From contig NZ_CP044507.1 in the NCBI RefSeq assembly GCF_008831505.1, forward strand, positions 1,736,001-1,800,000: 64,000 nucleotides of DNA, read 5' to 3'. Below the pieces are notes generated by a model. The model made no database searches. It had not been told where the DNA came from and worked only from the letters and a program-made list of their open reading frames with translations. Each line of letters begins with the position of its first letter. Within the stretch, counting starts at the first letter, position 1. Position numbers and translations under genes: made by a program. Positions 3,722 to 39,326 of the stretch are shown here, piece after piece. This stretch comes from Chryseobacterium sp. (GTDB lineage: Bacteria; Bacteroidota; Bacteroidia; Flavobacteriales; Weeksellaceae).

Positions 3722-3793
3722 CAGCCTGTTAACCAACCTCTGACGAAGGACGTGAATGTTGCTTAGCTTGACAAAAATTTTTTTATTAAAAAA

Positions 3794-6251: not shown

Positions 6252-8807
6252 CTATTTCTTTGAGACAATCAGTTTTAAAACTTTTTCGCCGCCACTTCCT
6301 TTTATTTTTACAAAGTACACTCCGTTGAGCAAGTGCCGCGACGAAAATACCTGTTTTACATTCACCACCAGCTTTTGCTCTGCTCTTACAAGCCTGCCGG
6401 AGGAATCATAAATTTCGATACTGACCTTCCCAAACATTGTTAGCGGAAAGTCAATATAGTAACGGTCATCAGCCGGATTTGGATAGAGGTTAAATTCTGT
6501 GGCAGCTGTGTTACCCGCCTTACATTCATCGGGCACTGTAAAATCTTCAGTCTGGTCATTGATACTTTTTCTGCTGCCCGCAGAGGCGTAAAGTCCCACT
6601 CCGCGCTTAGCGAAGGTTTCCCAGATCATGCAGCGGTTAGCGCCGCCCGTGGCTGCGATATCGGCCGCAATAACAGCATCCCTTCCCGACGGAAAAGTTG
6701 GATTACATTCCTGGAGTTTTATTCCGTCCATTACAGTTTGCAGCACTCTGGTACTACCGTTGTCGGAATTGATCATCACATCGGAGGCATATCCGTATTT
6801 TTCCGCATATTTCCAGTGAAGATCCCATAAAATGGTAGCCCAAACGAATCCAATAGAATGTATGTCAGGTGTCATTACACCGTCTTCCAGGAATTCCATT
6901 CCGTTTGTTCTGGCATAAGTATAATCATTGGTTCCGAAATCCGGTGAATAAAACCGTGGACGGATACCCACTCCGGCATTGGTTTGTCCCGCCGCATAGG
7001 TTGCAACCGACCTTGGTACTGATGCGGTGGCATTTGGCTGGTTGGTCAGCATTAAGGCAAAGAAATCAGACCACCCCTCGCCCATCTGCTCGCCGGACAC
7101 TTCTTTGTTCAGGCAGGAGTATCCGTTTCCCGTGAGACGGTTGGTGATTCCGTGAGCATATTCATGGATAATGATTCCGTTGTCAAAAGCGGCATCGGCA
7201 TACTGGTCCTGAGTGGGGTCATGCTTTAAAGTTACATTAACCGCGGTACCGGCAGTAAGTGTTGTTTTGATGAATTCACCCTCAGAATTTTCAATCAGAA
7301 CCGACGGAATACTGATGGAAGCGTCTGTTCCACCCATATTGCCAAAGTTGGTGGCTCCCGGATTGTTGTAAATAATGGCACCTCCGGCTCCCGCTTCCTG
7401 CATATTCTTCACCTTAACCGTAAAATTACAGCCGCCACGTTCGGCCAGGCCTATTTTGCCAGCCATAGAAGCCGGTGCAACAGGGGTGCAGGCATCAATA
7501 ACCGGAGAAAGAACGATATTGGCAGTAATGCCTGCCGGCGTTAGCTGCGGACCGAACTCTGCTGTCCTGCTGTTGGGCTGCCGCGGAACCGCACTCGCAG
7601 GACTGTTGTAGAAAAGGCGCTGCACAAAAGAAGGGGTCCAGAGGAACATCTGCATTCGAGGATTGGTACCTTCGGGCGGCGTAGAGAAGTTTGAGTTATT
7701 AAGATCTGAACTGTCCTGAGCTTCTGCCAGTACCGCATCATTGCCTAAACCACCTTTTCCGAAATTATTGGTCTGGAAATTCCGCGCATTTTCATTGAAA
7801 CCCAGCCGGTAGAAGATGTCATGGGTTTTATTTCCGGTATAAAAAAGATTGGTAATGGCCGCTGCCAGACTGTTCTGCGCTGGCAGGCCTGTCTGCAGCG
7901 GGAAATCGAACAGGCGTGCGGGTCCTCCATCAGGTGAGAAACCGGGATTGTTATTACCCGCAACATCATCATAAGCATAGATATTATTGCCCCGCGTTGT
8001 AGTATAGTGCGTAGCACCGTCGGAATGCCAGCCTTCGGGAGAAGCATCGGTGAACCAGGGATTTGAAACCACCGAACGCGAACCGAAATTGGGACTTTCC
8101 ACCGGTAAGGCAAAGACATTATAGGAAGCATTGTCCGGCGCTGCGACAGAGAACCTGGACGCATTGTCGCCATAAGCACCGGATAGGCTAGCGGGGTGAT
8201 CCGTCCACCTTTCAGTATGATTAAATGTGCAGGATAAGGTCAGGTTTTGCTTATGGAGAATTTTTCCTGTCTCTGCATCGGCAATAATGTCCCAGTATCT
8301 GCTGCTGCCGGCCTCATGAAAGTGAAATTCATAGCCTAAAACAAGATTTCCGTCCTTATTGAAATAGACCGTACGCTGCTTCGCCACTTTACCGGAAGTT
8401 GGGTCACTGAAGCCGGCCAATGTATATTTTTCGGGATCCTGAATATTCAGTTGCTTAAATGCGGCCTGCAGCGCTGCCTCAGGCAGTATGGTTTTTGCGC
8501 TACGCACCGGTAAACCGGCGGACTTTATCATTTGATCTGAAAAATAATGAACTTTACCCTCTTTTACCAAAGCCGTTGCCAAACCGTTGAAAACGGGGAT
8601 ATCATTGACCGTTTGCTGCAGTTTAAGTACGGTAGCCTTCATGGACCCGGAATAATCTTCCTGCTGAATAACAAAGTCCGGAATTTTTCCCATGTGGCGG
8701 GCCGAAGGATCTTTCCTAAGAAAATCTTCCATAATTCTCCGGTGATCCTGAGCCTGCAGAAAGCCAAAAGTAAGCAGAAGTGAAGCCGAAAGTATCAGTT
8801 TTCTCAT
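6252..8807 (-). CDS. secreted M36-type metalloprotease with T9SS tail
   Basis: An 851-residue exported zinc metallopeptidase of the fungalysin family (M36). Order: signal peptide (MRKLILSASLLLTFGFLQAQ), an FTP/PepSY-like propeptide (to about 215), a catalytic region interrupted by a protease-associated (PA) domain (AERGGCNFTVKVKN), then the zinc motif HEYAH (about 548-552) with the third ligand in EGWSDFF (about 580). The tail starting FNLYPNPADDRYYIDF and ending GVYFVKI..LKLIVSKK is a type IX secretion type A sorting domain, so the protein is probably secreted across the outer membrane through the T9SS. The PA insertion between the N-terminal and zinc parts of M36 is a known bacterial arrangement. 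Confidence 0.93.
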   Translation of the reverse strand: MRKLILSASLLLTFGFLQAQDHRRIMEDFLRKDPSARHMGKIPDFVIQQEDYSGSMKATVLKLQQTVNDIPVFNGLATALVKEGKVHYFSDQMIKSAGLPVRSAKTILPEAALQAAFKQLNIQDPEKYTLAGFSDPTSGKVAKQRTVYFNKDGNLVLGYEFHFHEAGSSRYWDIIADAETGKILHKQNLTLSCTFNHTERWTDHPASLSGAYGDNASRFSVAAPDNASYNVFALPVESPNFGSRSVVSNPWFTDASPEGWHSDGATHYTTTRGNNIYAYDDVAGNNNPGFSPDGGPARLFDFPLQTGLPAQNSLAAAITNLFYTGNKTHDIFYRLGFNENARNFQTNNFGKGGLGNDAVLAEAQDSSDLNNSNFSTPPEGTNPRMQMFLWTPSFVQRLFYNSPASAVPRQPNSRTAEFGPQLTPAGITANIVLSPVIDACTPVAPASMAGKIGLAERGGCNFTVKVKNMQEAGAGGAIIYNNPGATNFGNMGGTDASISIPSVLIENSEGEFIKTTLTAGTAVNVTLKHDPTQDQYADAAFDNGIIIHEYAHGITNRLTGNGYSCLNKEVSGEQMGEGWSDFFALMLTNQPNATASVPRSVATYAAGQTNAGVGIRPRFYSPDFGTNDYTYARTNGMEFLEDGVMTPDIHSIGFVWATILWDLHWKYAEKYGYASDVMINSDNGSTRVLQTVMDGIKLQECNPTFPSGRDAVIAADIAATGGANRCMIWETFAKRGVGLYASAGSRKSINDQTEDFTVPDECKAGNTAATEFNLYPNPADDRYYIDFPLTMFGKVSIEIYDSSGRLVRAEQKLVVNVKQVFSSRHLLNGVYFVKIKGSGGEKVLKLIVSKK

Positions 8808-26189: not shown

Positions 26190-26598
26190 GCCGGCTTTAA
26201 AGCAAAAATTCAGCCGCAAAGGGTTGAGTAAAGGTGAAATACGGATCGGTCAGTTATGCTAAAATAATCAACACAAAACCTCATCGCAATGGCGAAATAC
26301 CAATTCTTCCGCAACGCTTTTTAGGTTTGAAAAAAAAACTTTTGCGAAGGTTTACAGGTTCCTATTAAGGCACCAGAAATTCGAAGAACTTTCTTAAATG
26401 GAAAAATGAGTAGTTTTTAACTGCATATTATAAGATTCATCTGTATGTTCTGCATTGTGCTTCGTACGATTAATAGTTAAATTTCTACTTAATAAAATAT
26501 TTTTTTTGTTAAAGTCTGTTTACGACCTCACACCTAAATTTCACGGTTTAATTTTCCTTATATCCATTTTTCGCTACATTTGTAAGAAACACGATCTT
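26190..26598. other. left boundary gap of the defence island
   Basis: About 410 bases with no convincing gene. It carries the divergent promoter region of the M23 gene and of the helicase. TACATTTG at 26575-26582 fits a -7 box for the helicase. I see no tRNA, integrase remnant or clear direct repeat that would mark an integration site. Composition becomes markedly AT-rich from about 26400 rightwards. Confidence 0.5.
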
Positions 26599-29500
26599 TT
26601 GAAAATAATTAACAATCAGGAAACACTTCTTATCAATGAGCTAAAAAACAGCATCACATACGATACTGAAGTTTTCGTCGCAACATCCTATTTTTCCATT
26701 CTTGCTATTTATGAACTGCTGTCAAGCTTCCAGGATGCTTCAAAAATCCACATCCTACTAGACAATAGATATATTTTAGAAGATTCGAGGTTTTCATATG
26801 ATGAAGAAGAATATAAATCGTTTTATGACTTAACATCAAAGTTTAAGGCAGACAAAGTATTGAGTCTCTTAAAAGATAAGGTAGAAATTAGGGAGGGTTC
26901 TGTTGGAGGCCAGAAATTTATTCTCACTGTAGAAAAGAATATAACCAACTATTTCATGATGGTTCCTAATGACCTGAACCTAAAAACGTTGGGTATTGAG
27001 AAATCCTCCTCCCCAATGTTGCTAACCAATATCATTGATGATAAAAATCAGTTCTTATCGATATTTGAAAATGCATGGTCAACGAGTAAAAAAGATGCTA
27101 AGCAAAAGGTAATATCTTTAATAGAAAAAACAGCTAAAATTTATTCCCCGGAAAAACTATACAAATTCACGCTCAATAATATCTTTCAGAATAAAACATT
27201 TGATGAGATTGCGGAGCAGCGATTAAATAAAACCGGGTTTAAAAGTTCAGTAGTTTGGAATATGCTCTACAATTTCCAAAAAGATGCAGTCTTGGGCGCC
27301 ATCGAGAAGATTGAAAGTTTCGGAGGTTGTATCATAGCGGATAGCGTTGGTCTGGGTAAAACTTTTGAAGCGTTGGCGATCATGAAGTATTATAATCTCC
27401 GTAACGACCGAATACTGGTGCTCTGTCCTAAAAAGCTGCGCGAGAATTGGGTGATATACAGCATGATTTCAGATGTGCGAAATATTCTTGCTAAGGACCG
27501 AATGAACTTTGATGTACTAAATCATACTGATCTCTCACGGGAGAGTGGTATTTCAGGGTTGATTAATTTAGCAACAATTAATTGGGGAAATTATGACTTA
27601 GTGGTAATTGATGAAAGCCACAATTTTAGAAATAATAATCCGCGTAAAAACACAATTGGTCGATATCAGCGACTGATGGACGATATCATTAAAGCAGGTG
27701 TAAAAACTAAAGTCCTGATGCTCTCAGCCACACCGGTAAATACCAGAATGAATGATATCAAAAATCAAATCGCTTTCATTACGGAGCAGGAAGATGATTT
27801 GCTTTTGGATTACGGCATCGAAAGTATTGATACTTCATTGCGCATCGCCCAACAGAAATTCAACGGCTGGTTAAAAGCAAATCGCAGTCAGACTGGTAAT
27901 CGCGATGGCTTGGTGAACGCATTGAATGGTGATTATTTTAAAATCTTAGATCTTTTAACAATAGCGCGTTCGCGTAAACACATTGAAAAATACTACGATA
28001 CGTCAGATATCGGAAAGTTTCCGGAAAGATTAAAGCCAATTACAATTCATACAGATTTTGACCTTAGTAAAACTTTTCCTCAAATGGGCGAAGTGAATAT
28101 GTTACTTAATGACCTTGATCTGAAATTTTACTCTCCTCTGTCGTTTGTTAGAGATGATAAGCGTGAGATGTACGAAAAAAAATACGATTACACCACCAAA
28201 ACAGGTTCGGTATTTTCCCAGCTCGACCGGGAAAACAGCTTAATCCACCTTATGCGTGTCAATCTGCTTAAGCGTTTGGAGAGTTCTGTTCATTCTTTCA
28301 CCCTCACTATAAATACATTGCTGAAACAGGTGAATGACTTGCTCGCCCGCATTGAAAAAATAGATACTGATGAGTACTATTCTAACGATTTAGACATCGG
28401 AAATTTAGATGCTGATGATGATCGTTTAGATGATTTATTAATTGGGGGCAAGATAAAAGTACTCCTGAGTGATTTAGATTTACTCAAATTCAAAGAAAGT
28501 CTCTCAGATGATCAGCGGAAATTAGAGGAACTTTACGCAATGGCCGCCGTAGTGGATGCTGCTCGGGATGCGAAATTGAAAGATTTGCTCCATAAAATTG
28601 AAGAGAAACTGGCAAACCCCATTAATGAAGGAAATAAGAAAGTGATTGTTTTTTCTGCCTTTGCAGATACGGTGAAATATTTATATAAAGCATTGTCTGA
28701 TGATTTAAAAAATGAACATGGGGTATTCTCTGCCTTGATAACAGGAAGCGATGAGAATAAATCGAATATGCCGCACACTAAAATGGATCTCAATTCACTG
28801 TTGATTAATTTCTCACCACTTTCTAAAAAAAGAGAAACTATTTTTCCTAATGAAAACAACCAGATTGATATCCTCTTTTGTACAGACTGTATTTCGGAGG
28901 GTCAGAATCTTCAGGATTGTGACTATCTGGTTAATTACGACATACACTGGAATCCCGTTAGAATTATTCAGCGTTTCGGTCGCATCGATCGTATCGGCTC
29001 CAAAAACGATAAAATTCAGTTGGTAAACTTCTTCCCTAATCTCGATCTGGACAGTTATATTGATCTCATTGCCAGGGTTAAAGGCAGGATGCAGCTGTTG
29101 GATACTTCTGCTACAGGCGATGAAAATATTATTGATGAAACCGATGACCAAAAGCAGGATTTAGACTACCGCAAAAAACAAATGCTACAGCTCCAAAACC
29201 AGGTTTTGGATTTGGAAGATATCGAAGGCGGCATTTCAATTACCGACTTTACCTTTAATGATTTTAAAATAGATGCGGACCGAATTACAGCAGAAGAACG
29301 TGCTGTATTAAATGCCCTCCCAAAAGCCATCTTTTCCATTGTTGAAAATAACCTTGATGAAGGAAAAACAGGTGTGATTTTTTGCTTTCGTGAGATGGGT
29401 ACTGAAGATGCTAAGGCCAAATTACACAATAACATTTTATATCCCTATTCTTTGTGTTTTATTGCAGACGATGGTTCGGTTTTCATCCCTTCGGAGAATC

Positions 29501-29766
29501 CGAAGAAATGTTTGGATTTCTATAAAAAGTTATGTGCCGGCCAAAAAGATATTTTACCCCAGCTAATTTCCTCATTTAATCAGCAGACCAAGAGCGGAAA
29601 ATACATGGACACTTACCGTACACTCATGAATGCTGCCCTGACTCATTTGCATGGCGTAGATGCCGAGGTCGGAATAAACACCCTGGCGTTGCCCGGAATA
29701 TCCCAGCTGTCTAAAAATGACATAGAATACGATGCGGAATTAATCTCCTTCTTAATCGTTAAGTAA
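26599..29766 (+). CDS. SNF2/HepA-type helicase with degenerate PLD-like N-terminus
   Basis: A roughly 1055-residue superfamily 2 helicase. Residues about 1-190 resemble the phospholipase-D fold seen in HepA-related defence helicases (VFVATSYFSILAIYELL, IHILLDNRY), but the HxKxxxxD catalytic motif is not recognisable. Helicase motifs are complete: I DSVGLGKTF (about 248-256), II VVIDESHNFRN (about 336), III LMLSATPVN, and V/VI SEGQNLQDCDYLVNYD plus IIQRFGRIDRIGS (about 790). No ATG precedes the conserved region; a TTG at 26599, just after a TACATTTG box, is my choice, and an in-frame TTG at 26455 is an alternative. The ATG of the DUF4391 gene abuts its stop codon. Confidence 0.88.
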   Translation: MKIINNQETLLINELKNSITYDTEVFVATSYFSILAIYELLSSFQDASKIHILLDNRYILEDSRFSYDEEEYKSFYDLTSKFKADKVLSLLKDKVEIREGSVGGQKFILTVEKNITNYFMMVPNDLNLKTLGIEKSSSPMLLTNIIDDKNQFLSIFENAWSTSKKDAKQKVISLIEKTAKIYSPEKLYKFTLNNIFQNKTFDEIAEQRLNKTGFKSSVVWNMLYNFQKDAVLGAIEKIESFGGCIIADSVGLGKTFEALAIMKYYNLRNDRILVLCPKKLRENWVIYSMISDVRNILAKDRMNFDVLNHTDLSRESGISGLINLATINWGNYDLVVIDESHNFRNNNPRKNTIGRYQRLMDDIIKAGVKTKVLMLSATPVNTRMNDIKNQIAFITEQEDDLLLDYGIESIDTSLRIAQQKFNGWLKANRSQTGNRDGLVNALNGDYFKILDLLTIARSRKHIEKYYDTSDIGKFPERLKPITIHTDFDLSKTFPQMGEVNMLLNDLDLKFYSPLSFVRDDKREMYEKKYDYTTKTGSVFSQLDRENSLIHLMRVNLLKRLESSVHSFTLTINTLLKQVNDLLARIEKIDTDEYYSNDLDIGNLDADDDRLDDLLIGGKIKVLLSDLDLLKFKESLSDDQRKLEELYAMAAVVDAARDAKLKDLLHKIEEKLANPINEGNKKVIVFSAFADTVKYLYKALSDDLKNEHGVFSALITGSDENKSNMPHTKMDLNSLLINFSPLSKKRETIFPNENNQIDILFCTDCISEGQNLQDCDYLVNYDIHWNPVRIIQRFGRIDRIGSKNDKIQLVNFFPNLDLDSYIDLIARVKGRMQLLDTSATGDENIIDETDDQKQDLDYRKKQMLQLQNQVLDLEDIEGGISITDFTFNDFKIDADRITAEERAVLNALPKAIFSIVENNLDEGKTGVIFCFREMGTEDAKAKLHNNILYPYSLCFIADDGSVFIPSENPKKCLDFYKKLCAGQKDILPQLISSFNQQTKSGKYMDTYRTLMNAALTHLHGVDAEVGINTLALPGISQLSKNDIEYDAELISFLIVK

Positions 29767-30546
29767 ATGGAGTTTATACCTTTCATTTCTTCCGTTTTTG
29801 CCTTGCCGGCTACTGCTGTTAACATACAGAAGCTACCTAAAACTTTTTTCTACAAAAGTTTCGATTTGCTGCCTTCGGAAAAGAAAATGATCGAGGATCC
29901 GGCCATTCTTGAGCAGTTCGAAATATTATCATTGATTAATCCACGATCAGCTAATATTCCCGCGGTTCATACAGAAGAAGAAACCTATGACGAAATCATT
30001 TTTCTGTTGGTCAAAACTTCTTCACTACATTTTGAAAGTCATAAAACCAGGATTGCCGAAGTATTGCATAAATACATTCCCAACCATCTAATGGTAGTTG
30101 TGTATGGCGACGATAAAATGTTGCTCTCCATAGCGGAAAAGAGGATCAATCAAAATGATAACACCAAAAGAATAATAACCCAGGTATATTGTACAGAAAA
30201 TATCAATTGGCCCAACCCTGTTACTCAACATCAGTTATTTTTAGAAAAGCTGGCCTTTCATGAAGCCAATACCTTCAATCTGCAGCAGTATTATCAATAC
30301 TTTATACAGTGCTTCTCAGGGCTGCTGCTTACCGAATCCACTGGTCAGTTCAGATTAAGATCATTTGAAAGAAGTAAACAGGATGTGGCGGTAATGAATC
30401 AAATTCAGGAACTGAACAACCAAATAATTGCCTTACAAAATCAGGCAAAAAAACAAAAACAAATGTACGAAATGGTTACATTAAATACCATGGTCGCGGA
30501 GAATAGAGCTGCAATTAAAAAGCTTCGTGACTCACTCGAAAATTAA
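29767..30546 (+). CDS. DUF4391 protein
   Basis: A 259-residue protein matching DUF4391, a family of unknown function that recurs beside SNF2-type helicases and type III restriction genes. The N-terminal ~190 residues are mixed alpha/beta (LPKTFFYKSFDLLPSEKKMI, IIFLLVKTSSLHF, LMVVVYGDDKMLLS), and the last ~55 form a coiled coil (IQELNNQIIALQNQAKKQKQ). The ATG directly follows the helicase stop with no spacer, indicating tight coupling. It is inferred to be a partner or targeting subunit of the helicase. Confidence 0.85.
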   Translation: MEFIPFISSVFALPATAVNIQKLPKTFFYKSFDLLPSEKKMIEDPAILEQFEILSLINPRSANIPAVHTEEETYDEIIFLLVKTSSLHFESHKTRIAEVLHKYIPNHLMVVVYGDDKMLLSIAEKRINQNDNTKRIITQVYCTENINWPNPVTQHQLFLEKLAFHEANTFNLQQYYQYFIQCFSGLLLTESTGQFRLRSFERSKQDVAVMNQIQELNNQIIALQNQAKKQKQMYEMVTLNTMVAENRAAIKKLRDSLEN

Positions 30547-30578
30547 CATATTTTAATAAAATTGTGTATCTTAAATCC

Positions 30579-30609
30579 CTTGCTTTTATGAAAAATATGT
30601 ATAACTTTG
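30579..30609 (+). promoter_or_regulatory. promoter of the Abi-associated RNA and gene
   Basis: CTTG (30579-30582) and TAACTTTG (30602-30609) show the full Bacteroidota -33/-7 pattern with standard spacing. The predicted start is near 30616, immediately before a hairpin-forming sequence. Confidence 0.6.
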
Positions 30610-30615
30610 CACTTA

Positions 30616-30672
30616 ATAATACCTGCCACGGTTCTCATAAGAACACCGCACCTGGGCAGGTTTTCGCTTTTT
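30616..30672 (+). ncRNA. structured RNA upstream of the Abi gene (abiF RNA-like)
   Basis: ACCTGCC (30621-30627) pairs with GGCAGGT (30655-30661). Inside, GTTCT (30631-30635) pairs with AGAAC (30640-30644) around a CATA loop, with flanking CG/CCG extending the stem through bulges. A T-rich stretch follows (TTTTCGCTTTTT). A structured RNA is known upstream of abiF-type genes (the AbiF RNA motif, recalled from comparative RNA surveys). Position, size and the adjacent promoter fit, but membership needs a covariance-model match. It could instead be only an attenuator. Confidence 0.5.
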
Positions 30673-30676
30673 ATAC

Positions 30677-30715
30677 CATAGACACTCAATTCTCTAATTC
30701 TTTTAGCGGTCTATG
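30677..30715 (+). promoter_or_regulatory. hairpin enclosing the abi start codon
   Basis: CATAGAC (30677-30683) is complementary to GTCTATG (30709-30715), and the ATG at 30713-30715 forms the end of the second arm. If it folds, the start codon is paired and translation would be restricted. Confidence 0.45.
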
Positions 30716-31609
30716 AACTACCATAAACCATTTGTTTCCGTTTCCGACCAAATTAAGAACTTGCAGTCCCGGGGATTGACGGTCAATGATCCTGCAAAAG
30801 CGGCGTCTTACCTTTCCAACATCAGTTATTATCGGTTACGGGCCTATACGTATCCCTTTCAGGACAATAATGATCCCACTCATCCTTTTATAATTCCGGT
30901 TTCTTTTGAAGACATTATTAAACTCTATGTCTTTGACCGCCAGTTTAGGCTCTTTGTTTTAGATGCAGTAGAGAAAATTGAAATCTCAATCCGCACGCAG
31001 ATCATCTATAACTGGGCAAGGAACCACGGCAGTCACTGGCATTGCGATGGAACACTGTATCGCAATTCCGTGCAGTTCGCAAGAGACTTTACCCGCTTGC
31101 AGCAGGAAGTGGATAGAAGTGTTGAGACATTTATAGGTCATTATAAAACTACCTATACAAATCCTCACGAACCACCGTGTTGGATGAGTCTTGAAGTAAC
31201 GAGCTTTGGCCTCCTCTCACTCATATTCAGGAATCTCAAAATGGGCGCGGAAAAAAAAGCAGTGACTAAATATTACGGTTTAGGAAAGGTGGATATCCTG
31301 GAGAACTGGATGCATGCCTTCAGTAACATCCGCAATGTTTGTGCACACCACAGCAGAATGTGGAACCGCAGACTCACAGCACATATTACCATACCCAATC
31401 ATACGGTTAATCCGTTTATCACAAATAAAAACATTTTACCCTATAAAATTTATGCTGCCTTATGTGGCATGAAATACATCTTGGATACCATAAGTCCGGG
31501 CAATTCCTTTGCGAAACGGCTCAAAGACTTAATGCAAACCTGTCCGCTAGCCCAGGAAAAGGAAATGGGTTTTCCTACTGATTGGAAAACTGAAAGCTTT
31601 TGGAATTAA
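30713..31609 (+). CDS. Abi_2 (AbiD/AbiF-type) abortive infection protein
   Basis: A 298-residue protein of the Abi_2 family (PF07751), whose members block phage growth, often by killing or arresting the host. Signatures are NLQSRGLTVNDPAKAASYLSNISYYRLRAY, FIIPVSFEDIIKLYVFDRQFRLF, AVEKIEISIRTQI, CWMSLEVTSFGLLS and NWMHAFSNIRNVCAHHSRMWNR. The RNVCAH segment (about residues 207-212) fits the RxxxxH motif of HEPN ribonucleases, to which AbiF-type proteins are related. It has its own promoter and structured leader, so it is probably expressed separately from the preceding helicase pair. Confidence 0.92.
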   Translation: MNYHKPFVSVSDQIKNLQSRGLTVNDPAKAASYLSNISYYRLRAYTYPFQDNNDPTHPFIIPVSFEDIIKLYVFDRQFRLFVLDAVEKIEISIRTQIIYNWARNHGSHWHCDGTLYRNSVQFARDFTRLQQEVDRSVETFIGHYKTTYTNPHEPPCWMSLEVTSFGLLSLIFRNLKMGAEKKAVTKYYGLGKVDILENWMHAFSNIRNVCAHHSRMWNRRLTAHITIPNHTVNPFITNKNILPYKIYAALCGMKYILDTISPGNSFAKRLKDLMQTCPLAQEKEMGFPTDWKTESFWN

Positions 31610-31648
31610 CGCAATTATGAAAAACAAAGTAAACTCAACAAAATAAAC

Positions 31649-33388
31649 ATGGATATTGTAAAAGAACCAATAATTAATCTTTTCAGCACAGGAAAAAACC
31701 AATATATCATTCCTTTCTTTCAAAGACCTTATGTCTGGAAAATTGAGGACTGCGAAAACTTATACGAAGATTTCATACAGACTTTGGAAACCTCAAACAA
31801 GAATCCCCTGAAAGAACACTTTATTGGAACAGTTATTACAAAGCCTAATCCTGCCAGTAGAGCCTCAAGCGCTAAATTTGATCTCATTGACGGGCAGCAG
31901 CGATTAACAACATTTGCATTGGCTATTAAGGCCTTGGCAAACTCAGTAGACACTTCGCAGGAAAACGCGCAGCATCTTTACAATAATATTAATAATGCGC
32001 TATCGTATATAGATTCCTTTGGTAAACAGCATTTCCGAATAGTACATAATAGAATAGACAGTTCATATTTCAATAAGGTGATGGCTTCCGATGCTGATAC
32101 AATTTTTGATGAAGAAGAAGGAAGAAGCAAGATCATTGATAATTACAGATTTTTTGCCAAAAACTTTAAATCACTTTCCAATTTTGAAATCGATGAATTC
32201 AACGAAGTGATACAGGGAAAGTTTTCTGCCATCAGCATGGTATTGGATGCACACGACGATGAACAGGAAATTTTTGATACCATAAATTCTCTCGGAGTAA
32301 AATTGACGACATCAGAGCTTTTGAAAAATTTTGTTTTCAATAATGATTATACCAAGGACCTTTATAAAGAATTTTGGGAAGATGTTTTCGAATCCGACGA
32401 AGAAACAATTAAATTCTGGAATACCAAAAAGACTGCAGGCCGTGTTTACCGGGAAAATATCGACGTTTTATTGTACTGTTTTCTGTTGATTGAAACCCAG
32501 AAAGACGTTTCATTAGAGCACCTCTTCAAAGATTATAAATCTTGGTTGAGCATTAAATCTGATAAGGAAAAGGAAAACTTTCTTAAAAAGTTGAAATCTT
32601 ATGCCGAAGTGTATACCACTTTTCCAACCGGTACCGAACTCAATAACCTGAACTTTTCAGACTACGAAAAAAGATTTTTCCACGTCATTGAAAATCTGAA
32701 TATTACTACAATATTCCCTCTGGTTTTGTTCATCTACGATCAGGAAAAAAACAATCAGGAAAGATTAAACTGCCTGCAGCTTTTGGAGAGCTACCTGGTA
32801 AGAAGAAATATAGCCAAACTCACTACGAAAAACTATAATAATCTGTTTATTTCCATTATTAAAGGTCTAGCCGACAGAGAGGAAAAATCAGTTTTTGAAT
32901 CGCTCAAAGAAACCGTATATGGGTACAAGGACGAAACAAACCGCTTCCCGTCGGATGAAGATTTAGAAACCGCATTTGCAAACAATGTACTGAGTAATCA
33001 GCATGCAAAGGAAACTTTATTTACCATTGCGCTCTATCAGATCAATACGGTCCTTCATGATGTTACGGCTTTAAGTTCCAACAGTTTCTCCGTAGAGCAT
33101 ATGATGCCTAAACAATGGCAGGCAAACTGGAATAAGGTTATGACACCTGAAGAAAAAAACATACGAAATCAAAAATTGCTTACATTGGGCAACCTTACAA
33201 TAATTACTAAAAACCTGAACAGCAAATTGCGAAACAGTTCCTGGAGTATAAAGCGAAACGTATTGCAGGAAAACTCTGCAATTCCTCTTACCACAAAATA
33301 TACGTCGTTGGATCAATGGGATGAAGCTTCAATCGCTCAGCGAGCTACTGACCTGTATGATATTGCTGTAAAAATCTGGAAAAAATAA
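31649..33388 (+). CDS. GmrSD-type DUF262/HNH modification-dependent nuclease
   Basis: A 579-residue fused GmrS-GmrD-like protein (type IV restriction in characterised members, cutting modified phage DNA using NTP). The N-terminal DUF262 part has IPFFQRPYVWK, HFIGTVI and the nucleotide-binding FDLIDGQQRLTTFAL (about 80). The C-terminal DUF1524 part has the HNH-like VEHMMPKQW (about 483) and LGNLTIITKNLNSKL. Both halves look intact. The stop is three bases from the Mod start, placing this nuclease in the same transcript as the type III restriction genes. Confidence 0.9.
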   Translation: MDIVKEPIINLFSTGKNQYIIPFFQRPYVWKIEDCENLYEDFIQTLETSNKNPLKEHFIGTVITKPNPASRASSAKFDLIDGQQRLTTFALAIKALANSVDTSQENAQHLYNNINNALSYIDSFGKQHFRIVHNRIDSSYFNKVMASDADTIFDEEEGRSKIIDNYRFFAKNFKSLSNFEIDEFNEVIQGKFSAISMVLDAHDDEQEIFDTINSLGVKLTTSELLKNFVFNNDYTKDLYKEFWEDVFESDEETIKFWNTKKTAGRVYRENIDVLLYCFLLIETQKDVSLEHLFKDYKSWLSIKSDKEKENFLKKLKSYAEVYTTFPTGTELNNLNFSDYEKRFFHVIENLNITTIFPLVLFIYDQEKNNQERLNCLQLLESYLVRRNIAKLTTKNYNNLFISIIKGLADREEKSVFESLKETVYGYKDETNRFPSDEDLETAFANNVLSNQHAKETLFTIALYQINTVLHDVTALSSNSFSVEHMMPKQWQANWNKVMTPEEKNIRNQKLLTLGNLTIITKNLNSKLRNSSWSIKRNVLQENSAIPLTTKYTSLDQWDEASIAQRATDLYDIAVKIWKK

Positions 33389-33391
33389 CCC

Positions 33392-35386
33392 ATGAACAAA
33401 ATCACCTCCCTTACCTCCGAAGACCTGGTAGCCCAGAATATTGCCACCCTCAAACAGCTGTTTCCCACGATTGTAAAAGAAGGCGAAATAGATTTCAAAG
33501 AACTGGAATCTTTGCTTAAAAACGATCTGGTAGAAGGCGACGAATACTACCGCTTCACCTGGGCAGGCAAATCACAGGCACGCCTGGAAGCCAATAAACC
33601 CAGCACCGCCACTTTGCGTCCCGATAAAGAAAGCAGTAAAAACTGGGACACCACCAAAAATATCTTTATAGAAGGCGACAATCTGGAGGTGCTGAAACTT
33701 TTGCAGAAATCTTACGCCAACCGCATTAAGATGATTTATATAGACCCGCCTTACAATACGGGGAAAGATTTTGTGTACATGGATAACTATGCCGACAACC
33801 TGCAGAACTATCTGGACATTACCGGCCAAACCGATGCACAAGGAAAAAAAACCAGCACCAATACCGAAAGCGACGGCCGCTACCACAGCAATTGGCTCAA
33901 TATGATGTACCCGCGATTGCGATTAGCAAGAAACCTGCTTACCGACGACGGCGTTATTTTTATCTCTATTGATGATAATGAGGTTCATAATCTAAGAAAA
34001 TTATGTGATGAAGTTTTTGGGGAGGAGAACTTTGTAGAATGTTTAAAATGGAAAAGAAAAAAGCAACCTTCTTTTTTAGCAAGGCATACTGCAAAAGTTA
34101 TGGAGTACGTCTTAATTTACGCAAAGTCTTTTAACAAACTTGAAAAACTTTCAATTGAAGGAACCTCAGATTCAACTAAGAAGGTTGTAAATCTTACAAA
34201 TCAATATTCAGAAAGATTTTTTAAGAAGGGTGTAATGGTTAAATCAGGTGGTTCAGGTATTATTAAAAAAGGTAAATATCAAATAAAAACAATGACAGTT
34301 GAATATTTAGATGATGTGATTTATGAGGAAGGTTTTACAACAAATGATGTCAGCGTTTTTGCTCAGTTTTCAGTCTCTCAAGAAAAGATTGATAACTATA
34401 TCGATGAAAAATTATTATTTATTACTATTAACAATGGTTTGCGAAGAGATGTTAGTGAAGAAGAAATTGGCAAAAAAAAATCAATAACTGATTTGCTATT
34501 GGATTGGGGAGATAATCAAGATAGCGATAATGAGATGAAAGAAATTTTTGAAGAGAAATATTTTGATTATACAAAACCTCTTAAATTTATGTACAATTTA
34601 TCGAAATCTTCTGATACTGAAAATAATATTATTCTTGACTTCTTTGCCGGTTCCGGAACCACCGCTCACGCCGTAATGCAACTGAACGCAGAAGACGGCG
34701 GAAACAGGAAATGTATTTCGGTCCAGTTGCCGGAACTTACAGACGAAAGTTCCGAAGCTTTTAAAGCCGGTTACACCAACATTGCAGAAATTACCAAAGA
34801 ACGCATCCGCCGCGCCGGAGAAAAAATTGTAAATGCAGAAAAAGAAAACCTGCAAAAAGCAGAAGCAGAACTTTCTGCAGAAAACGCCAAAGCCATTAAA
34901 GACGAAAACCTTATAGAAGAATTGGCATCTAAAATCCAAAATCTAAAATCCAAAATCCAAAATTTAGATATTGGTTTCAAGGCCTTCAAACTCGACAGCA
35001 GCAACATCCGCCCCTGGGACGGCAACCCCGAAAATCTGGAAGACCAGCTCTTCACCTACGCCGAAAACATCAAAGAAAACCGCACAGAAGAAGACATCCT
35101 CTTTGAAGTGCTCCTGAAATATGGTTTAGACCTTACCGTTCCCATTGAAGAAAAAGCCGTGGCCGGAAAAACCGTGTACAACATTGGCGCCGGAACCATG
35201 TTCATCTGCCTCGCAGATAACATTACCCCGGAGATTTCCGAAGCCATTGGCCAGTGGAAAGAAGAACTGCAGCCCGCCATTTCCCGCGTCATCTTCAAAG
35301 ACAGCGGCTTCGCCACAGACAAAGATAAAACCAACGCCGTGCAGATCCTTAAACGCTTTGGTGTAGAAGAAGCGAACAGTATTTAA
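33392..35386 (+). CDS. mod: type III restriction-modification methyltransferase
   Basis: Mod subunit, 664 residues, beta-class amino-methyltransferase that sets the recognition site for the Mod-Res complex. Motif IV (IYIDPPYNTGKDF, about 116) precedes motif I (ILDFFAGSGTTAHAV, about 413), with the target-recognition segment between. Bases about 33962-34636 are far more AT-rich than both sides, so the recognition segment was probably exchanged. At 34931-34965, five 7-bp units encode a short coiled coil (SKIQNLK repeated). The partner Res is at 36291-39326, with a DinD-like gene between. Confidence 0.94.
   Translation: MNKITSLTSEDLVAQNIATLKQLFPTIVKEGEIDFKELESLLKNDLVEGDEYYRFTWAGKSQARLEANKPSTATLRPDKESSKNWDTTKNIFIEGDNLEVLKLLQKSYANRIKMIYIDPPYNTGKDFVYMDNYADNLQNYLDITGQTDAQGKKTSTNTESDGRYHSNWLNMMYPRLRLARNLLTDDGVIFISIDDNEVHNLRKLCDEVFGEENFVECLKWKRKKQPSFLARHTAKVMEYVLIYAKSFNKLEKLSIEGTSDSTKKVVNLTNQYSERFFKKGVMVKSGGSGIIKKGKYQIKTMTVEYLDDVIYEEGFTTNDVSVFAQFSVSQEKIDNYIDEKLLFITINNGLRRDVSEEEIGKKKSITDLLLDWGDNQDSDNEMKEIFEEKYFDYTKPLKFMYNLSKSSDTENNIILDFFAGSGTTAHAVMQLNAEDGGNRKCISVQLPELTDESSEAFKAGYTNIAEITKERIRRAGEKIVNAEKENLQKAEAELSAENAKAIKDENLIEELASKIQNLKSKIQNLDIGFKAFKLDSSNIRPWDGNPENLEDQLFTYAENIKENRTEEDILFEVLLKYGLDLTVPIEEKAVAGKTVYNIGAGTMFICLADNITPEISEAIGQWKEELQPAISRVIFKDSGFATDKDKTNAVQILKRFGVEEANSI
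34931..34965 (+). repeat. heptanucleotide tandem repeat inside mod
   Basis: Units AAAATCC, AAAATCT, AAAATCC, AAAATCC and a degenerate AAAATTT run head to tail. Seven is not a multiple of three, so gain or loss of one unit would shift the mod frame at about residue 515-525 of 664. Confidence 0.85.
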
Positions 35387-35421
35387 TGCTAAGATTTTTT
35401 CCTGTTTAAACCTTTACAATA

Positions 35422-36243
35422 ATGAATGATATAAAAGTTTTTGAAGATAAAAAAGTCCGTAGCCATTACGACATGGAAACAGAAGTTTGGTTTTTCTCTT
35501 TGGTCGATATTGTTGCGGCGCTTACCGATAGTGCAAATCCTACTGACTACCTTAAGAAAATACGGAAAAGGGACGTTGAACTTAATTCCTACATAGGGAC
35601 AAATTGTCCCCAGGTACCAATGTTGGTGAATGGCAAAAATAGAAAAACACTTGCAGGCAATGCAGAACATATATTTCGATTAATACAGGCTATCCCATCA
35701 CCAAAAGCAGAACCCTTTAAACAGTGGCTGGCAAAGGTGGGCTACGAAAGACTGCAGGAAATTCAGGATCCATCCTTAAGCATAGATCGCGCACGCGAAA
35801 ACTGGCAAAAGATAGGCAGAAGCGAGAAATGGATTCAGCAAAGGATGACCGGACAGGAAACCCGAAATAAACTGACCGATTACTGGAAAAATTCCGGGGT
35901 TACCGAACAAAAAGAATTTGCCGCCCTCACCAATATTATTCATCAGGAGTGGACCGGCCTTTCTGTAAAGAAACACAAAGACCTTAAAGGGCTTAAATCT
36001 CAGAATCTTCGTGACCACATGTCAGAAGCCGAACTCATTTTTACCGCACTGGCAGAACTCTCCACAAGACAGATTGCTGAGAAAGATCAGTCCGAAGGTT
36101 TTTTGCAGAATGCAGTGGCAGGTAAAAAAGGAGGTGCGGTGGCAAAAAATGCCCGAAAAGAACTCGAGCAGCAAACAGGTAAGAATGCGATTACAGGTCA
36201 GAATTTTCTGCCTCCTAAAAAACAGAAGAAAGACAAGCCCTAA
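35422..36243 (+). CDS. DinD-like protein with Bro-N domain
   Basis: A 273-residue protein of the DNA-damage-inducible protein D type. The N-terminal Bro-N domain (about 1-110: VRSHYDMETEVWFFSLVDIVAALTDSANPTDYLKKI) is found in phage antirepressors; the rest matches DinD (FKQWLAKVGYERLQEIQDPSLSIDRARENW, SEAELIFTALAELSTRQIA). E. coli DinD is SOS-induced and inhibits RecA strand exchange, so a damage-linked role in the restriction operon is conceivable. It sits between mod and res, 35 and 47 bases away. The tail from AVAGKKGGAVAKNAR is lysine-rich. Confidence 0.85.
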   Translation: MNDIKVFEDKKVRSHYDMETEVWFFSLVDIVAALTDSANPTDYLKKIRKRDVELNSYIGTNCPQVPMLVNGKNRKTLAGNAEHIFRLIQAIPSPKAEPFKQWLAKVGYERLQEIQDPSLSIDRARENWQKIGRSEKWIQQRMTGQETRNKLTDYWKNSGVTEQKEFAALTNIIHQEWTGLSVKKHKDLKGLKSQNLRDHMSEAELIFTALAELSTRQIAEKDQSEGFLQNAVAGKKGGAVAKNARKELEQQTGKNAITGQNFLPPKKQKKDKP

Positions 36244-36290
36244 GTAATACATCATCTACCTTCACTTATTAATTTTTGCCCATATCTATT

Positions 36291-39200
36291 GTGAAAATAA
36301 AATTTGAATCCAGCCTCGATTATCAGAACGATGCCATCAACGCTATTGTCGACATCTTTAAAGGACAGGAAGCCTGCACTTCCAGTTTTACGGTGTTCTC
36401 ACCGGAGTTCATCAACAAACAGGGACTCCAGTACGAGAACGAAACTGGGGTAGGCAACAAATTAGTCCTCACCCAGAGCCAAATTCTGGAAAATGTCCAG
36501 AAAATCCAATTAAAGAATGGCCTACGCCCTGCTGCAAGTCATGAGATAGACAAAGAAAATCTCGACTTTTCCGTGGAGATGGAAACAGGTACCGGTAAAA
36601 CCTATGTCTATCTTAAAACCATAATGGAAATGAACCGCCAGTATGGTTTCAGTAAGTTTATCATTGTCGTTCCTTCAATACCAATTAAGGAAGGGGTTTA
36701 TAAATCCTTGCAGATGACCTTGGATCATTTCCGTGAACACTTTCCGGAAAACCTCTATAACGAAAAAAGCTTTTTCATCTACGACAGTTCCGATCTGGCC
36801 TCTGTCCGAGACTTTGCCCTGGAAAACAGAATTAAAGTCATGGTGATTAATATCCAGGCCTTCTCCAAAGATATTGACGACACGGCCAAGAAAGGAAACC
36901 GTGTTATCCTGGATTACAACGACAGGTTAGGGTATCGCCCCATCTCTTTATTACAGAATACCAGACCTATTGTCATTGTAGACGAACCTCAATCCACCAT
37001 GAGCAGTGCCCTGCAGAAAAAATCGGTAAAGAATCTGCATCCCTTGGCCGTCGTGCGATATTCAGCGACACATACCGAAAAAATCAACCTCATGTATAAA
37101 CTGGATGCCGTGGATGCCTACAACCAGCAGCTGGTTAAGCAGATTGAGGTGGCTTCTGTTCAGGTATCCGGCGCGGCATCAAGTGGTGCTTATATAAAAC
37201 TGCTTTCACTCCAGAATAAAAAAGGTATTTCAGCGAAAGTGGAATTGGATGTAAAGCAAAAGGATGGCAAAGCGAAGCGAAAGACCGTGGAGCTGAAAAA
37301 GAATGCGGATCTGCAGCAGGAAACAAAATTGCCACAATACGCAGACTACTTCCTTAAGGACATCTATGTGGAACATGAATATATCGAGTTCACTAACGGG
37401 ACAGAAATAGCTTTAGGAAATTCCATTGGTGAAGTAGATGATCTCATGGTGAAGCGACACCAGATCAGAAAAACAATTGAAGAACATCTGGACAAAGAAA
37501 TCAGATTGAATCCCAAACGAATAAAGGTCTTAAGTCTCTTTTTTATTGATGCAGTGAAGCACTACCGTATCTATGATGAGGATGGGAATGAGCAACTGGG
37601 AGACTACGCAAGAATCTTCGAAGAGGAATATAAAAAACTTATTGTCCTTCGTAAATATCAGTCTTTATTTCAGGAAATCAAAGATCTGGATACTGAAGTC
37701 TCTCTTGTGCACAACGGTTATTTTTCAATCGATAAAAAAGCTAAGGCCAGTAACAAAAAAGAAAAATTTGAATTCTTTAAAGATACCAGCGGTGCTGTAA
37801 AAGCAGATGAGGATACCTACAACCTCATTATGAAAGACAAAGAAAAACTGCTGAGTTTTGACAGTAAACTTCGCTTTATATTTTCGCATTCCGCACTAAA
37901 GGAAGGTTGGGACAATCCGAATGTTTTCCAAATCTGCACACTTAAGGAAGCGGGTTCCAGTGAAACGAGAAGAAGGCAGGAAATTGGCCGTGGTCTGCGT
38001 TTGGCGGTAAATCAGGCCGGAGAGCGGGTGTATGGCTTCGAAACAAATACCTTAACGGTCATGGCTAGCGAGAGCTATCAGGATTTTGTCGATAACCTGC
38101 AGAAAGAAATTGAACAAGATACCGGCATCAAATTCGGTGTTTTGCAGGATCACAGTTTTGGAAGTGTAGTGGTGGACATGCACGGTAACGAACCGGTATA
38201 TCTGGGTCACGAAAAGTCCAAAGAGATTTTCGACTTCTTCTTACTAAAAGGATATATCAACAAAACAGGAAAAATCCAGGACTTGCTGAAAACCGATATT
38301 TTGGAAAATCAGGTTGATCTCGGTCAGGAATTCGAAAGTCACATCAAAGAGCAAATACTCAAGGAAATCACCAGAACGGCAGGTAAAATTAATATTAAAA
38401 GCAGCGACGATAAAATAACGGTTAAACTGAACAAGCATGTATTTTTAAGCGACGAATTCAAATCCCTGTGGGACAAAATAAAATTCAAAACTACCTATTC
38501 TGTTGATTTCGACAGCCAAAAGCTGATAAATACCTGCATCAGCCACATCGATGCACGTATCGTAATTAATGGCGGTAAAGTAATTTATAATAAAGGAAAA
38601 CTTACCATGTGCGAGGGCGGTCTGTTGGTTAAGGAGGAAGAAATTTCTTACGATACCGTAAAACAGGAAGTTCATCTACTGCCGGACATTATAGGTTATC
38701 TGCAGAACGAAACGCGGCTCACAAGAAAATCAATTGCTAAAATCCTTCAGGGTGTCAGCAACTTAAATTACTTCAAAGTCAATCCTCAAAAGTATATTGA
38801 GGGTTGTATTGATGTCATCAACGAAGCTATGCGGATGCACATTGTAGATGGTATCGTTTACAAAAAAATGGGTGATCAAGAGTATTACAGCCAACAGCTG
38901 TTCGAGAATGAAGAACTTACGGGATACCTCAAATCAAACGCGGTAGAAAGCTCAAAGTCTCCTTATGAGTATACGGTTTACGATAGCAATATTGAAATGA
39001 ACTTAGCCACCGAGTTCGAGAAAAATAAAAATGTCAAGGTCTACGCTAAATTACCTGATTGGTTTAAAATTGATACACCCCTCGGCAAATACAACCCGGA
39101 CTGGGCAGTGCTTTTTGAAATTGACTGCAAAGAAGAACTCTATTTTGTCGTGGAGAGTAAGGGAACTTTAGGGTATGAATTTCTGCGCCCGTCAGAAAAA

Positions 39201-39326
39201 GGCAAAATTGATTGCGGAAAAAAACATTTTGAAGAACTTGCAAAAGGTACAGGGTATAAGATGAAGCTTGAATATGTTACCAATAATGAAGAGTTTGTAG
39301 ACAAGGCAATGAGCATCTTTAACTGA
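36291..39326 (+). CDS. res: type III restriction endonuclease subunit
   Basis: Res subunit, about 1011 residues, ATP-dependent translocase and nuclease. The likely start is GTG at 36291, giving the family-typical MKIKFESSLDYQNDAINAI opening; an in-frame TTG at 36276 is less likely. Helicase motifs: Walker A VEMETGTGKTYVYLK (about 99), Walker B IVIVDEPQ (about 230), SATH, KEGWDNPNVFQICTL and RRRQEIGRGLRL. The C-terminal PD-(D/E)XK nuclease is visible as NPDWAVLFE and FVVESKG (about 935-955). All core motifs are present, so with Mod it should form an active enzyme. It is 13 bases upstream of the sigma-54-like gene. Confidence 0.94.
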   Translation: MKIKFESSLDYQNDAINAIVDIFKGQEACTSSFTVFSPEFINKQGLQYENETGVGNKLVLTQSQILENVQKIQLKNGLRPAASHEIDKENLDFSVEMETGTGKTYVYLKTIMEMNRQYGFSKFIIVVPSIPIKEGVYKSLQMTLDHFREHFPENLYNEKSFFIYDSSDLASVRDFALENRIKVMVINIQAFSKDIDDTAKKGNRVILDYNDRLGYRPISLLQNTRPIVIVDEPQSTMSSALQKKSVKNLHPLAVVRYSATHTEKINLMYKLDAVDAYNQQLVKQIEVASVQVSGAASSGAYIKLLSLQNKKGISAKVELDVKQKDGKAKRKTVELKKNADLQQETKLPQYADYFLKDIYVEHEYIEFTNGTEIALGNSIGEVDDLMVKRHQIRKTIEEHLDKEIRLNPKRIKVLSLFFIDAVKHYRIYDEDGNEQLGDYARIFEEEYKKLIVLRKYQSLFQEIKDLDTEVSLVHNGYFSIDKKAKASNKKEKFEFFKDTSGAVKADEDTYNLIMKDKEKLLSFDSKLRFIFSHSALKEGWDNPNVFQICTLKEAGSSETRRRQEIGRGLRLAVNQAGERVYGFETNTLTVMASESYQDFVDNLQKEIEQDTGIKFGVLQDHSFGSVVVDMHGNEPVYLGHEKSKEIFDFFLLKGYINKTGKIQDLLKTDILENQVDLGQEFESHIKEQILKEITRTAGKINIKSSDDKITVKLNKHVFLSDEFKSLWDKIKFKTTYSVDFDSQKLINTCISHIDARIVINGGKVIYNKGKLTMCEGGLLVKEEEISYDTVKQEVHLLPDIIGYLQNETRLTRKSIAKILQGVSNLNYFKVNPQKYIEGCIDVINEAMRMHIVDGIVYKKMGDQEYYSQQLFENEELTGYLKSNAVESSKSPYEYTVYDSNIEMNLATEFEKNKNVKVYAKLPDWFKIDTPLGKYNPDWAVLFEIDCKEELYFVVESKGTLGYEFLRPSEKGKIDCGKKHFEELAKGTGYKMKLEYVTNNEEFVDKAMSIFN

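Follow-up and report, generated by a model that had tools for sequence, protein, structure and literature searches.

A short structured RNA at positions 30616–30669 (plus strand) of the analysed window, a 64,000 nt stretch of Chryseobacterium sp. DNA, belongs to the abiF RNA family, broadly defined, and has a form which the Rfam model of this family misses. It lies ahead of abiF (30713–31609, plus strand), a gene for a 298 aa protein which by homology is an HEPN ribonuclease toxin of the Abi_2/AbiD-F type. We consider it highly probable that the two constitute a type III-like module of RNA antitoxin and HEPN ribonuclease within a restriction-modification (R-M) operon, comparable to PbAbiF-AbiFr of Prevotellaceae and to AbiF-RCd22 of Clostridioides difficile.

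Promoter and structure of the RNA

The RNA is preceded by a Bacteroidota-type promoter on the same strand, consisting of TTG (–33) at 30580–30582 and, 19 nt downstream, the –7 box TAACTTTG at 30602–30609, which matches TAnnTTTG and stands 11 nt ahead of the outer stem. Of 75 Bacteroidota-type relatives, 66 have a TAnnTTTG box 8–13 nt upstream of the stem, and in 64 the distance is 9–11 nt; the background rate would give approximately 1.2. The –33/–7 promoter which the initial annotation had placed directly before the RNA is thereby confirmed. As in type III toxin-antitoxin systems, the RNA is located upstream of the toxin gene and has a promoter of its own, assigned here by consensus and conservation.

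All parts of the RNA are on the plus strand. A 7 bp outer stem (ACCTGCC 30621–30627, GGCAGGT 30655–30661) is followed by a single unpaired A (30628) and a 4 bp inner stem, CGGU/ACCG (CGGT 30629–30632, ACCG 30645–30648), which encloses a 12 nt loop, UCUCAUAAGAAC (30633–30644). A 6 nt bulge, CACCUG (30649–30654), leads back to the outer stem on the 3' side, and behind it lies a U-rich tract (30661–30675), T-rich in almost all relatives and probably the point of termination or read-through. A simple terminator scan found no classical short-loop terminator; the loop of the RNA is too long for that scan. The outer stem and the T-rich sequence behind it had been described correctly before. The inner stem had been given as GTTCT/AGAAC, a helix which we reject: across 59 RNAs only 45% of its cells are paired and its first pair is present in the window alone. 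The conserved inner stem is CGGT/ACCG instead, with 91% of cells paired.

Conservation and covariation

Homologues were sampled by scanning one genome per species in 84,980 species, and 80 loci were kept. Ahead of nearly every close homologue an element of the same build is found, with an outer stem of 6–8 bp, usually one A and an inner stem of 3–4 bp; the loop, a 3' bulge of approximately 6 nt mostly beginning with CA and the T-rich tail are shared as well. For fold and covariation tests, 59 non-redundant RNAs were aligned without use of structure. RNAalifold recovered both stems from this alignment. With the structure named above, 90.6% of cells are paired and double changes occur at 9 of 11 pairs. 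The covariation score is 0.359, compared with 0.117 after shuffling and at most 0.134 when the register is slid. The third inner pair, G-C in the window and C-G in 56 of the 59 RNAs, is an instance of a compensatory change. Besides the stem, the letters of the loop and of the 3' bulge are conserved. Mean identity to ten close relatives amounts to 83% in the RNA region and to 38% in the leader behind it. The RNA is real and conserved.

Relation to the Rfam abiF family

The window RNA is among the training sequences of our first covariance model, R1. We therefore trained another model, R2, on 37 RNAs whose homologous proteins are at most 43% identical to the window protein; the window RNA was left out. 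In a search of the genome R2 finds the window RNA with 56.2 bits (E 9.9e-14) and the runner-up with 23.2 bits; a second abiF RNA above approximately 25 bits is not present in this genome. A scan with the Rfam abiF model, RF03085, had been proposed as a check in the initial annotation. When run, it matched neither the window RNA, at the gathering threshold (37 bits) or at a permissive E ≤ 10, nor anything else in the whole genome. RF03085 misses the window RNA because it covers one compact form only. The same model does score RNAs at the same position before sister genes, for instance at loci L003, L063 and L110, and yields matches that pass its cut-off in the genomes holding L055, L059, L061 and L071.

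On a protein tree of 72 sequences, parsimony yields 12 changes between the compact and the long-loop form of the RNA, at least 7–8 of which are forced by starred branches, and the window protein falls within a supported clade of 17 containing both forms. In our sample the long-loop form is the commoner one (42 of 71 classified loci). The match to R2, the sister RNAs recognised by RF03085 and the interchange of forms on the tree together lead us to place the window RNA in the abiF RNA family, as delimited here by position, covarying fold and a match to a model of distant members. The core of the initial annotation, an abiF-type RNA before an AbiF HEPN gene, is borne out by R2 and by the RF03085-positive sister RNAs.

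The AbiF protein

The 298 aa protein matches Pfam Abi_2 (4e-54; 184 bits against a cut-off of 25.6) and is assigned to AbiD by PADLOC (3.6e-72). It aligns along its full length with the protein chain of PDB entry 8VZ6, PbAbiF (2.8e-58, 36% identity); the literature describes this entry as the Prevotellaceae AbiF with its bound non-coding RNA (PMC12737573; PMC12373285). The catalytic RxxxxH motif, R207-N-V-C-A-H212, is intact, and R207 and H212 are invariant across 25 aligned sequences. By analogy with these homologues we predict that AbiF is an HEPN RNase toxin, toxic and active as a ribonuclease. A second Abi_2 gene was not found elsewhere in the 2.76 Mb genome. Searches of viral contigs with the window protein and with PbAbiF gave no match and did not recover the PbAbiF locus and its RNA.

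Occurrence of the RNA with and without abiF

The RNA is found at the same position in all 79 testable homologous loci, that is, in those of the 80 which have upstream sequence; part of these loci trained R1, and a separate structural scan agrees with the count. The homologues which carry it are spread over Bacteroidota, Proteobacteria, Acidobacteria and further groups. No such RNA accompanies the more remote Abi_2 genes (E 1e-14 to 1e-33) sampled in the class and family to which the window belongs. In a sample of 395 genomes of the class, R1 gave 27 matches of at least 40 bits; 22 of these adjoin an AbiF gene and five do not, the absence of abiF being judged on short stretches only. Broken abiF remnants follow one of the five orphan RNAs and one weaker match (loci L174 and L175), and among the homologues examined no intact close abiF was seen without the RNA. 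Since the toxin never occurs without the RNA, and the RNA sometimes without an intact toxin, this is the pattern expected of an antitoxin and the one by which type III toxin-antitoxin pairs are recognised.

At L174 (G053:C1) the abiF RNA is followed by an N-terminal piece of abiF, at L175 (G129:C149) by a C-terminal one. Locus L171 (G097:C33) holds two matches 6 kb apart (2324–2377 and 8303–8353, 51 and 39 bits) and no recognisable abiF remnant. Tandem pairs of abiF RNAs stand upstream of abiF at L014, L021, L022 and L128; they often combine one long-loop and one compact RNA and are reminiscent of RCd22 from C. difficile with its two motifs. Another such pair, at L172 (G165:C23, 2966–3094, minus strand), lies directly upstream of a long open reading frame which, read by eye, resembles a type I restriction R subunit, with no abiF in between; it is likely an orphan antitoxin pair remaining after loss of the toxin.

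Comparison with characterised systems

The fold of the RNA, its conserved promoter, the obligate association with the toxin gene and the catalytic motif are established here by sequence comparison. RNA binding, inhibition, termination and toxicity would follow here by analogy, and the antitoxin role is suggested by two characterised homologues (PMC12373285; PMC12737573) together with the pattern of presence.

The first homologue is PbAbiF-AbiFr (PDB 8VZ6; Zilberzwige-Tal et al., Cell 2025), in which the toxin is homologous over its full length and has the same HEPN motif. PbAbiF is described as a homodimer with two copies of the ncRNA, which is inactive when R210A and H215A are introduced (PMC12373285). 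Its RNA is represented in our comparison not by AbiFr itself but by the RNAs of PbAbiF's nearest relatives, L018, L020 and L023, which share with the window RNA the outer stem, the 1 nt junction, the inner stem and the 6 nt 3' bulge. They have the compact form recognised by Rfam, with a 3 bp inner stem, a CUCU loop and a CAAAUC bulge, whereas the window RNA has a 4 bp inner stem, the longer loop given above and a CACCUG bulge. The exact inhibitory contacts may therefore differ between the two, as loop and inner stem differ.

The second is RCd22-AbiF of C. difficile, again an RNA with its own promoter before an Abi_2/AbiF toxin and a known case of premature termination combined with antitoxin action. 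Most transcription ends before abiF, and deletion of RCd22 raises abiF mRNA 17-fold; RCd22 binds AbiF and, depending on its stems, neutralises the toxin both in cis and in trans (PMC12373285). It differs from the window RNA in carrying two abiF motifs in one RNA of 88–132 nt, compared with one motif here. RF03085 RNAs have the same position and topology and interchange with the window form among close relatives, although the window RNA receives no score from their model. ToxIN and other type III systems likewise pair an endoribonuclease toxin with an RNA antitoxin located upstream of it, but the toxin fold is unrelated and the ToxIN antitoxin takes the form of a repeat array which the toxin cuts (PMC12373285).

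One might see in the RNA a cis-acting leader only, an attenuator which sets abiF transcription through termination or read-through without acting on the protein in trans. The layout would fit, as the RNA begins at the promoter and ends in a U-tract approximately 40–50 nt before the start codon, and so would the rise of abiF mRNA upon deletion of RCd22. However, letters of the loop and 3' bulge are conserved besides the stem, as expected of a protein-binding RNA, RCd22 acts in trans too, by direct binding (PMC12373285), and some of the RNAs are retained where no intact gene follows. We therefore regard this explanation as improbable.

Start-codon hairpin

The separate inverted repeat over the abiF ATG which had been noticed in the initial annotation is real in the window sequence: CATAGAC (30677–30683) can pair with GTCTATG (30709–30715) on the plus strand to form a hairpin (30677–30715), a probable translational brake. 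A stem of such strength over the ATG arises in 0.65% of shuffles (p 0.0065); the minimum-energy fold is less unusual (6.3% of shuffles, z –1.3). As a conserved element the hairpin has to be rejected, for relatives differ in its sequence and position or are without it. Sequestration of the start codon is nevertheless in excess: p < 0.06 is reached at 11 of 44 abiF loci, whereas among 90 other genes taken from these loci it is reached by 5 (Fisher p 0.002; the control segments are 50 nt long with first-ATG guesses as start codons, whereas abiF leaders vary in length). Start-codon pairing is thus a recurrent, heterogeneous feature in about a quarter of the abiF family. Because it is heterogeneous, the claim of a translational brake can be made with moderate strength: the hairpin in the window may restrict abiF translation, though it is no conserved part of the module. 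The strength of this stem and the excess in the family would also suit a scheme in which abiF is controlled chiefly by the hairpin, the upstream RNA being a by-product. This we hold to be very unlikely, as most relatives are without the hairpin and others differ in sequence, while the upstream RNA is universal.

Genomic surroundings

The locus (26455–39326) is a run of genes sharing the plus strand and consists of an HKD+Snf2 helicase, DUF4391, the RNA-abiF pair, GmrSD, a type III methylase, a BRO-N protein and a type III restriction subunit. The helicase and its DUF4391 partner occupy 26455–30546. In a search for an empty insertion site, DUF4391 was missing from nearly all of 58 sampled relatives, with one weak match besides the window, which suggests that this stretch is a recently acquired island. 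Directly behind abiF, within the R-M run, follows the GmrSD-type restriction protein (31649–33388, plus strand). The BRO-N protein (35422–36243, plus strand), its gene flanked by those of the type III methylase and restriction subunit, matches the PADLOC candidate defence family PDC-S13 (1.1e-115). Outside this locus, the window contains an L19-Flavobacteria ribosomal protein leader (3734–3761; Rfam RF03130, 41.5 bits).

The inverted repeats might be due to chance or, without any relation to abiF, merely terminate transcription of the upstream DUF4391 gene, given a GC stem and T's approximately 75 nt behind that gene, but this reading is refuted by the comparative data and hardly worth considering, since the same RNA with its own promoter precedes abiF regardless of the upstream neighbour, covariation is strong and the independent model R2 matches with E 9.9e-14.

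In the close relatives L003, L055, L056 and L061 the module directly adjoins a methylase or specificity gene on one side and a restriction gene on the other, and in L058, L070 and L079 beside a restriction-subunit-like gene; at L053 no R-M gene is evident nearby, as judged without a profile search. An RNA-cutting toxin is likewise nested among R-M genes in the EcoprrI type I R-M operon, which contains PrrC. This toxin belongs to a family other than AbiF and is kept in check by the R-M proteins rather than by an RNA. For Abi_2 genes as such, embedding in R-M operons has been noted earlier (PMC3710099).

Proposed mechanism and implications

In the module of RNA antitoxin and HEPN ribonuclease which we favour, the strong promoter would produce a short structured RNA of approximately 55–60 nt, mostly ending at the U-tract behind the outer stem, and abiF mRNA would arise from rare read-through or from transcription out of the upstream R-M operon. 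AbiF would be a dimeric HEPN ribonuclease binding one RNA per monomer, with stem, loop and 3' bulge contacting the protein so that the active site is blocked; the start-codon hairpin in the leader would probably lower AbiF translation further. Most likely, the RNA holds the AbiF dimer inactive and its loss during infection frees the RNase: a phage could halt transcription or destroy the RNA, and freed AbiF would cleave cellular RNA and arrest growth. That a phage is the trigger, and that the module guards the R-M operon, is speculative. More tentatively still, and with considerable doubt, abiF RNAs may all belong to a single broad family whose cores, of at least two interchangeable kinds (compact and long-loop), are swapped by the toxins, to which the R-M-nested branch adds an independently evolved start-codon hairpin, resulting in a double-locked suicide device guarding the R-M operon.

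The kind of module is already known; new is the extension of the abiF RNA family by a form the Rfam model misses. The RNA-guided Cas13 systems have been proposed to descend from AbiF and its RNA. A model from the present alignment recovers the long-loop form too, whereas the public abiF model covers the compact form only. Close toxin pairs with different RNA forms, such as L003 (compact) and L004 (long-loop), could reveal which parts of the RNA decide antitoxin specificity. Finally, the copies nested among R-M genes point to a connection between restriction and RNA-controlled suicide which can be put to the test.
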